A stretch of 62,069 bases of DNA from Desulfotignum sp. (GTDB lineage: Bacteria; Desulfobacterota; Desulfobacteria; Desulfobacterales; Desulfobacteraceae), in NCBI GenBank assembly GCA_011390635.1, contig JAABSA010000008.1, positions 57,454 through 119,522 of the forward strand, given 5' to 3'. Numbering within the stretch: position 1 is the first letter of the stretch; every line of letters begins with the position of its first letter. The notes under the pieces were generated by a model that did not search any database, was not told the origin of the DNA, and was given only the letters and a program-made list of their open reading frames with translations. This document shows, piece after piece, positions 1,087 through 45,805 of this stretch. A program made the translations under genes and the position numbers.

Positions 1087-1242
1087 GGCACAGCCCTTTG
1101 ATTTTGATTTTTGGTCTGCCAGCTGACACAGGGGAAAGGTTTCACATTCCTGCACACGGGTCAGATAACCCAGGATGCCGTTCCCCGGCAACAGTTTCTT
1201 CCCTGTGCTCCACGGTAGCGGCAAGGGCAATTGCCTGTTGAT
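1087..1242. other. Intergenic stretch between mobA promoter and hairpin element 1
   Basis: About 150 bases between the divergent mobA and pyrR genes, upstream of hairpin element 1. I see no gene of convincing length. The minus strand has short open stretches without a ribosome site, and I found no molybdenum-cofactor riboswitch consensus by eye. Confidence 0.4.
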
Positions 1243-1354
1243 GCAGCGTCACATATATTGACATAGCCCCCTGTGGGTGCCGTGTGACAGGACCGTCAGA
1301 TGCCAATCTCGGGCCGGTCACACGGCACCCACAGGGGGCGGGGTATCAAGCTGC
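1243..1354 (+). repeat. Hairpin element 1 (conserved core, variable stem)
   Basis: A perfect 22-base inverted repeat (1267-1288 with 1317-1338) encloses a 28-base loop. The loop holds the shared core GGACCGTCAGA (1290-1300) and ATCTCGGGCCGG (1306-1317). The core itself folds: GG/CC, an A-G mismatch, CCG/CGG, an unpaired TC, then AGA/TCT closing a short loop. Weaker outer pairing (GCAGC 1243-1247 with GCTGC 1350-1354) may lengthen it. The same core, with unrelated stems, recurs at 17892-17922, 18025-18141 and 45741-45769. It lies upstream of pyrR in the same direction. Function unknown. Confidence 0.8.
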
Positions 1355-1383
1355 TGAACAGGATGTGGTTACATGCGGTTGCG

Positions 1384-1414
1384 CCGGGGGGCAAACCAGG
1401 GGCTTGCCCCCCGG
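1384..1414 (+). repeat. GC-rich hairpin in the pyrR upstream region
   Basis: A perfect 11-base inverted repeat: CCGGGGGGCAA at 1384-1394 with TTGCCCCCCGG at 1404-1414, loop of 9 bases. It is followed by GAAAAAAG and not by a run of T on either strand, so it is not a typical terminator. It sits between hairpin element 1 and the pyrR start and could shape the pyrR leader RNA. Confidence 0.55.
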
Positions 1415-14448: not shown

Positions 14449-14477
14449 TTTTTTTTATATGAAATCCGTCAGCCATC

Positions 14478-14516
14478 AGCTAAAAGCTAACAGCTAAAAG
14501 CTAACAGCTAACAGCT
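14478..14516 (-). repeat. Heptad repeat AGCTGTT/AGCTTTT, copy A
   Basis: On the minus strand this 39-base stretch is made of AGCTGTT and AGCTTTT units. The identical 39 bases occur on the plus strand at 38419-38457. A shorter related stretch lies at 37571-37627. All are intergenic and each is flanked on one side by GCTTTC(A/C)TAT. It follows the DAHP synthase gene. Confidence 0.75.
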
Positions 14517-17874: not shown

Positions 17875-17947
17875 GGCAATACCCTGTGAACGGACCCTCA
17901 GAACCAGTGGGTTCTCTGGAGGATATAATTTTTTACAGGTAATTGCC
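17875..17947 (+). repeat. Hairpin element 3 (degenerate copy)
   Basis: Outer arms GGCAATACCCTGT (17875-17887) and ACAGGTAATTGCC (17935-17947) pair with two central mismatches. Inside is GGACCCTCAGA (17892-17902), differing by one base from the shared core, then an inner hairpin AGAACC/GGTTCT (17900-17905 with 17910-17915) and CTGGAGG on the 3' side. It is one of four related elements and lies 18 bases upstream of element 2. The core pairing is only partly kept, so this may be a decaying copy. Confidence 0.65.
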
Positions 17948-17964
17948 TTGATACAGACGACAGT

Positions 17965-18227
17965 CTGGATATTTGCTATTGTAGCGAGTGCTCTATGGGG
18001 AGCCCCGGGTGGTGTCCTGTGAACGGACCGTCAGAGCCGGAGGGGGCATGATAAGATATGCCAGGATGGTTTTAAATAGAGAGCGGGTTGCCGCACTTCA
18101 TTGTTCTTATGCAAACAAGCCCCCGCAGGATCTCGGGCCGGGCACAGGACACCACCCGGGGCGGGGCCCGGGACAGAGCGCTGCAGACAACGGTCGAAAA
18201 CCTGGCATGCTTTTGGCAAATATCCAG
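17965..18227 (+). repeat. Hairpin element 2 (large multi-helix copy)
   Basis: Nested helices: CTGGATATTTGC (17965-17976) with 18216-18227; AGTGCTCT (17987-17994) with 18175-18182; a perfect 20-base stem 18002-18021 with 18143-18162; the shared core GGACCGTCAGA (18025-18035) with ATCTCGGGCCGG (18130-18141); and an inner GGGGGC/GCCCCC helix (18042-18047 with 18119-18124) closing a 71-base loop. The only non-Watson-Crick pair in the outer helices is a G-T that is stable only as plus-strand RNA. It lies 52 bases upstream of the radical SAM gene, in the same direction. Confidence 0.78.
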
Positions 18228-38418: not shown

Positions 38419-38467
38419 AGCTGTTAGCTGTTAGCTTTTAGCTGTTAGCTTTTAGCTGTTAGCTTTT
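38419..38467 (+). repeat. Heptad repeat AGCTGTT/AGCTTTT, copy C
   Basis: Seven tandem 7-base units of AGCTGTT or AGCTTTT directly after the second NifX-like gene. The first 39 bases are identical to the reverse complement of 14478-14516. Followed by GGCTGAATACTGACGGCTGATGG and CTTTCCTAT, like the flank of copy B. Confidence 0.75.
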
Positions 38468-38523
38468 GGCTGAATACTGACGGCTGATGGCTTTCCTATA
38501 AAAGCCAAGTCTGACCCCGATCT

Positions 38524-45688: not shown

Positions 45689-45805
45689 GGAACCATACCG
45701 CTCGCCGCACTTTTGGAGCCCCCGGCGCTGCCCTGCAGCCGGGCTGTCAGAGCCCGCGGATCTCAGGCCTGCTGCAGGGCAGTGCCGGGGGCGGACATCG
45801 GTTCC
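45689..45805 (+). repeat. Hairpin element 4 (compensatory core change)
   Basis: Outer stem 45718-45739 with 45771-45792: 22 pairs, 21 Watson-Crick and one G-T. The core is GGGCTGTCAGA (45741-45751) with ATCTCAGGCC (45760-45769). Compared with element 1, the pair C-G in CCG/CGG is replaced by T-A in CTG/CAG, keeping the helix. The TC bulge, AGA/TCT helix and purine mismatch are all kept. A further GGAACC/GGTTCC pairing (45689-45694 with 45800-45805) extends it. It lies upstream of the kinase promoter at 45857, so it is not in that gene's leader. Confidence 0.8.

Follow-up and report, generated by a model that had tools for sequence, protein, structure and literature searches.

Among the 62,069 nucleotides of Desulfotignum DNA analyzed here (the window), a preliminary description singled out four plus-strand loci that it considered copies of one hairpin with an invariant core. 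Are these loci a structured RNA, a single-strand-DNA element or pieces of mobile DNA? The reading that we favor, with a probability of roughly 55%, is that they belong to non-autonomous Desulfotignum mobile repeats that derive from one ancestral hairpin of ~75 nt, and that the folded plus strand of this hairpin is recognized at its bulged tip.

Features of the window are listed in Table 1. Copies 1 and 4 adopt the fold that had been proposed for them, in which GG/CC, a purine mismatch, CYG paired with CRG, a TC bulge and AGA paired with TCT follow one another. The core of copy 1 folds as GG-A-CCG-TC-AGAT...ATCT-CGG-G-CC; copy 4 folds in the same way, with T-A replacing C-G at the middle core pair. 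This replacement is real, and the same position is CG in 59, TA in 22, TT in 11 and another combination in 2 of 94 family copies. The stretches that contain copy 1 (1243-1354) and copy 4 (45689-45805) form near-perfect hairpins with fold z-scores of -9.94 and -5.68, respectively. The family covariance model assigns 74.7 bits to copy 1 and 73.6 bits to copy 4, scores that are high by construction since both copies sit in the model's own alignment. Copy 2 had been credited with the same core and the same fold and has neither. Its core region reads GGACCCTCAGA...TCTCTGGAGG, the right half of the core is missing, and the sequence folds differently; it gave no match to the family model at default filters and scored 6.9 bits with the filters off. 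Copy 3, which had been set apart as non-intact, is actually a complete element of a 263-bp class, in which a conserved loop of ~95 nt separates the core halves. Its best further match among those listed for the genome is 89% identical over the element. We rejected an insertion into copy 3, which is a full class C element with many matches across the genus. The covariance models missed this copy, presumably because of its long loop. The earlier description holds for copies 1, 3, and 4. Copy 1 lies between genes for a MobA-like NTP transferase and a phosphoribosyltransferase, copy 3 between genes for an alpha/beta hydrolase and a B12-binding radical SAM protein, and copy 4 is flanked by a gene with a GAF domain and a gene for a histidine kinase.

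Table 1. Positions of the hairpin copies and of their parts in the window.
Feature	Position	Strand	Remarks
Class A mobile repeat (copy 1)	1223..1386	+	164 bp between decayed terminal inverted repeats; both ends located
Copy 1 hairpin	1266..1339	+	24-nt arms flanking the core
Copy 1 conserved core, GGACCGTCAGA...TCTCGGGCC	1290..1315	+	
Copy 2	17875..17947	+	At best a decayed relative of the family; core lost
Class C mobile repeat (copy 3)	17965..18227	+	263 bp; inverted-repeat ends CTGGATATTTGC...GCAAATATCCAG
Copy 3 core, left half	18025..18035	+	
Class C conserved loop domain (copy 3)	18036..18130	+	Absent from the aligned class A and class B copies
Copy 3 core, right half	18131..18139	+	
Copy 4 hairpin (class B, nearly bare)	45717..45793	+	
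Copy 4 conserved core, C-G to T-A variant	45741..45769	+	

The family is dispersed. Absence of hits outside the window, which the preliminary description had named as a result that would weaken its proposal, was not borne out; further copies are found in the same genome, across the genus and on phage contigs. A strict pattern matched 17 times in the genome from which the window was taken and its reversed form matched 0 times. Model R1, which was built from 15 strict copies, identified 28 loci in that genome at E<0.01 in a search that scored 150 of 2647 candidates. These loci, which were not each inspected, correspond to 50 rows (including one weak row) because palindromes match both strands. 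R1 had matches in every one of the 13 Desulfotignum genomes searched; outside the genus, 46 relatives gave 0. The 263-bp class C has at least 22 further full or partial matches in the same genome and many in the genus. All of these loci constitute one family. A pattern scan of species genomes returned at least 118 stretches; the 80 scan loci listed include 15 copies that form 16 or more of 20 arm pairs, all of which come from Desulfotignum or from one Desulfobacteraceae MAG. In a phylum-wide search of 395 genomes with model R2, only the genome of the window matched, a negative result that is weak because 13 candidates per genome were scored. A distant search of PLSDB plasmids with the class C element gave no match, and a search of the open-licence literature listed no paper on the family. 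The preliminary description could not match the element to a known riboswitch, ribozyme, attC site or REP, and Rfam gave 0 matches above the gathering score in the window. Five further loci yielded 7 matches at E<=1, all under the gathering score: five to miRNA models over the hairpins, one to VA RNA partly over a hairpin and one to Proteo-phage-1 elsewhere. An Rfam family was rejected as the identity of the element, with nothing at the gathering score in the window and these five loci.

The model searches gave 110 hits, which were reduced to 97 copies upon removal of 7 that the core pattern could not parse and of duplicates. Stem statistics refer to the 94 of these 97 copies in which 17 or more of 22 arm pairs form. 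Of these 94, 93 have a TC bulge and 1 has TT. At the mismatch, 74 copies have A·G, 9 have A·T, 7 have G·G, 2 have A·A, and 2 have C·G. As inner pairs, 71 copies have A-T together with G-C, and 18 have G-C together with G·T. The fold is conserved within the core as well as in the stems.

Covariation persists when further copies are aligned, contrary to the outcome that the preliminary description had named as refuting its proposal. Alignment A2 comprises 15 of the 17 strict copies, aligned by position after two were dropped for odd arm lengths. In A2, 94.9% of the cells are paired, both sides have changed at 17 of 32 pairs, and 73 cells are double-changed compared to 19.6±3.8 after shuffling. 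Alignment A4 contains 38 distinct rows that were hand-chosen for diversity and include the phage copies described below; 39 of 40 references were aligned. Rows drawn from the 97 parsed copies were required to have at least 19 of 22 arm pairs, and the paired percentage of A4 is inflated because these rows were picked for well-paired stems. A4 has 231 double-changed cells, compared to 62.1±8.4 after shuffling and at most 35 in any slid register, and one core pair alternates between A-U (24) and G-C (14). The outer stems had been called unrelated; A2 and A4 reveal that they share a loose pattern that drifts by paired changes.

Wobble pairs in the stems are biased toward one strand. Read in the orientation of the core, the stems of the 94 copies contain 66 G·T and 13 A·C pairs, so that the excess of G-T among non-standard pairs, noted earlier for the window, is real. 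Counted as distinct contexts, the numbers are 48 and 12 (binomial p=3e-6). The bias is strong in non-A copies (33 versus 4) and not significant in class A alone (16 versus 9 distinct contexts, p=0.23). In class C, changes that make G·U are enriched over those that make A·C in paired versus unpaired columns (Fisher test, p=0.0023 with pairs taken from the plus-strand consensus fold, p=0.012 with pairs from the minus-strand fold and p=0.075 with pairs common to both folds). This preponderance of G·T pairs suggests that it is the plus strand that folds, as RNA or as single-stranded DNA. GC skew of the flanks at 96 loci, compared with the orientation of the elements, gave no replication-strand bias (mean -0.0071, p=0.20). 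The conserved bulged and mismatched tip, the covarying stems, the plus-strand bias and the further copies all agree with the earlier proposal of a structured RNA or single-strand-DNA element.

Class A consists of 45 copies. Both ends were located in 27 of them, which are 151-168 bp in length (24 of the 27 at 162-165 bp) and have terminal inverted repeats of the form CAGGG...CCCTG (CAGGGYNATCGCATGT ends). Duplications of 8-11 bp flank 12 of the 27 two-ended copies (7 exact, 5 with one mismatch), whereas swapping the right flanks among copies gave 0.235 on average and never more than 2. No target duplication was found for copy 1. One related locus, L130, keeps the outer part without the hairpin. 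Class C elements are 263 bp long and end in the inverted repeats CTGRATATTTGCYATA / CTGRATATTTGC; by eye and with no null, 9 of 22 copies have exact flanking duplications of 7-9 bp, and no target duplication is visible at copy 3. By their terminal inverted repeats and target-site duplications, classes A and C are MITE-type elements. Class B comprises nearly bare hairpins with short flanks in common and a foot that reads GGAG in many copies and GTAG in some. Among the non-A (solo) copies, which include class B, flanking duplications are no more frequent than expected (2 of 52, null mean 1.4). Class B cannot be assigned to a type. The earlier statement that the element is not a decayed insertion sequence needs to be changed, because of the terminal inverted repeats and target-site duplications that mark classes A and C; the hairpin is the inner module of mobile repeats. 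A search by ends for an autonomous partner in five genomes (most assemblies are fragmented) gave, among the matches listed for G000/G003/G006 and G000/G008/G011, no matching inverted ends at insertion-sequence spacing. Neither a transposase nor a binding protein was found for the family. At two loci (L096, L109), oppositely oriented hairpins are paired about 60-105 bp apart in a REP-dimer-like arrangement.

In PMC2229807, MITEs such as Correia/NEMIS, ERIC, and YPAL are described as short dispersed repeats with inverted repeats and target duplications, and their transcripts are predicted to form long stem-loops. The present family resembles them in dispersal, inverted repeats, target duplications, and a long stem-loop. 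It differs in that one hairpin with a nearly invariant bulged tip is common to classes with different ends, and in that its stem diverges through paired changes and shows a plus-strand bias.

In the favored reading, copies 1, 3 and 4 are members of one family with a single hairpin ancestor of ~75 nt, to which the decayed copy 2 probably belongs as well. The hairpin would now be carried in at least three contexts, of which A and C have inverted-repeat ends and B is nearly bare. Classes A and C may have been inserted by a cut-and-paste (DDE-type) transposase that acts in trans. We infer that the hairpin is kept because a protein recognizes the folded plus strand at the TC bulge and the purine mismatch, and that the recognized strand would be RNA or single-stranded DNA. 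The stems may serve mainly as a rigid handle, their sequence being free to change while pairing holds.

The family also occurs on three Mu-like phage contigs (L349, L338, and L329; GC about 0.61). A viral scan identified four hairpins there, each with 19-20 of 20 arm pairs, and the model search added a fifth. The proteins of L338 include Mu-like gpT, Gp36, and Phage_tail_S, and those of L349 include FluMu_N; six proteins of these two contigs were scanned, two of which had no hit, and L329 was judged by its ORF list alone. The phage hairpins occupy two intergenic places, in both of which the plus strand is antisense to the genes. One follows the gpT-like head gene; the other, in L349 and L329, follows a 425-426-aa gene further on, the product of which has no Pfam hit in L349. 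The 79 other gpT relatives that were kept have no R2 match (E up to 0.1) and no class C match. Five relatives (L592, L593, L594, L599, and L603) have unrelated inverted repeats, identified by eye, in the gap after the gpT gene. The gap itself seems to favor a hairpin, because related Mu-like phages hold these unrelated inverted repeats there. gpT relatives at E<=1e-20 were found in 4 of 59 searched genomes and in 0 of the 13 Desulfotignum genomes. Among the 222 loci listed for two relaxed viral patterns, the core together with at least 15 of 20 arm pairs was found only on the three phage contigs. It is possible, if rather doubtful, that the bulged hairpin is a selected portable module whose plus-strand fold is read by a protein and that was acquired by mobile repeats as well as by Mu-like phages. 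Such a module would aid movement or persistence and would define a structure-tagged class of mobile DNA, with a recognition signal made of fold plus bulge rather than sequence. If a protein reads the fold, non-coding repeats would have an unrecognized route to being mobilized or tolerated.

The stems change in a coordinated manner. We compared hairpins at 12 orthologous sites, one chosen comparison each, at which both flanks are collinear in two genomes; the right flanks diverge by 9.3% on average. The 252 stem pairs, compared ungapped, comprise 187 that are unchanged, 33 double changes from one Watson-Crick pair to another, 6 other doubles, 9 G·U singles, and 17 single breaks. Independent change would predict about 2 doubles and 43 singles, compared to the observed 33 and 26. 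Without two sites of unequal arm length, the corresponding numbers for 210 pairs are 165, 21, 6, 8, and 10. All 19 strict comparisons together give 300 unchanged pairs, 35 Watson-Crick doubles, 16 other doubles, 18 G·U singles, and 30 breaks. At a three-member site the comparison with the most doubles was taken (L046-L061), and at a four-member site one without a Watson-Crick double was taken (L063-L113). Selection alone, acting through two separate steps, would need to be very fast, and stem change probably owes something to template switching or to conversion between copies. Copy 1 and its orthologue in genome G003 differ in stem type. This difference suggests conversion, because the G003 type recurs at five other G003 loci. 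Stems that turn over at fixed sites, beneath a tip that is nearly fixed and in dozens of copies per genome across several species, make the family well suited to testing whether covariation stems from selection on a folded strand or from conversion or template switching.

These processes raise an alternative that we consider unlikely as a full account, namely that the arms are kept paired by template switching at quasi-palindromes or by inter-copy conversion and that the folded strand has no function. Such processes could yield much of the covariation without selection, and both the ratio of doubles to singles and the recurrent G003 stem type fit them; PMC8794818 proposes that perfect stems can arise by template switching. 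However, neither process alone predicts that G·T outnumbers A·C on the plus strand, or that most copies have retained the TC bulge and the purine mismatch, which counts against homogenization of the arms because homogenization should erase bulges. A cis-acting host RNA hairpin (an mRNA stabilizer, processing site or terminator) is highly improbable. It would explain why 96 of the 97 copies overlap no called gene (the remaining one overlaps by 5 nt; gene calls are from a codon-usage caller trained on the window) and why the gap in Mu-like phages holds unrelated inverted repeats in five relatives, and, according to PMC2229807, NEMIS repeat RNA has been proposed to be cut by RNase III as a substrate. 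Yet the copies, which lie in 28 divergent, 21 convergent and 36 tandem settings and in 12 with one side unknown, have no orientation bias to either neighbor: the plus strand has the direction of the upstream gene in 39 cases and the opposite one in 48; for the downstream gene, the corresponding counts are 52 and 43. TTTT within 12 nt 3' of the hairpin occurs in 0 of 97 copies on the plus strand and in 4 of 97 on the minus strand, where random positions within these loci would give about 6.8; an intrinsic terminator was rejected for this absence of a U-tract. The antisense orientation of the phage hairpins also argues against a cis-acting RNA.

There is likewise a slim chance that the family consists of REP sequences, which a REP-associated tyrosine transposase (RAYT) would mobilize as single-stranded DNA. 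The strand-specific bulged hairpin, its intergenic position, the high copy number and the GGAG/GTAG foot of class B are features expected from this explanation, and bulges matter for the E. coli RAYT according to PMC8266576. However, R2 finds 0 hairpins (E up to 1) at 30 of the 45 listed Y1 matches of the genus, blastn finds no class C element at those 30 loci, and the RAYT-like gene of the window's own genome is flanked by another repeat. In addition, the conserved part is the tip and not the foot, and classes A and C have target duplications. According to PMC3733652, REPs are 20-40 bp long and have an unpaired tag at one end, and their stems measure 5-13 bp in the GTAG type and 8-9 bp in the CGTC type; the CGTC type has an unpaired CGTC tag, an 8-9 bp stem that starts with A-T pairs and a short CCA tail. 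Like the GTAG and CGTC super-families, the present hairpins are palindromic, intergenic and high in copy, and their core has C/TGTC beside the hairpin. Their stems, however, exceed 20 bp, and C-Y-G is paired so that only TC is bulged, near the tip. A CGTC REP was rejected on these grounds, with only TC unpaired, an inner stem of 3-4 bp and arms of more than 20 bp outside it; a GTAG REP or RAYT REPtron was rejected since no associated RAYT is flanked by the hairpin at the 30 of 45 Y1 loci. Integron attC hairpins also undergo strand-specific recognition of extrahelical bases, and they conserve the foot, whereas the tip is conserved here. A further parallel exists with IS200/IS605 hairpins, for which strand-specific recognition of extrahelical bases in the folded strand is described in PMC8266576 (IS608 contacts); no family hairpin lies beside the 30 Y1 loci examined.

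Other repeats were observed in the course of this analysis. At L025 (G000:C83:1-2231), the gene for a RAYT-like Y1 transposase is flanked by several copies of an unrelated repeat, AATTAAGTATGGTGTCCCC. The window also contains two short tandem arrays, at 14477-14516 and 38419-38472, which are built from a common 14-bp unit, AACAGCTAAAAGCT, in opposite orientations.
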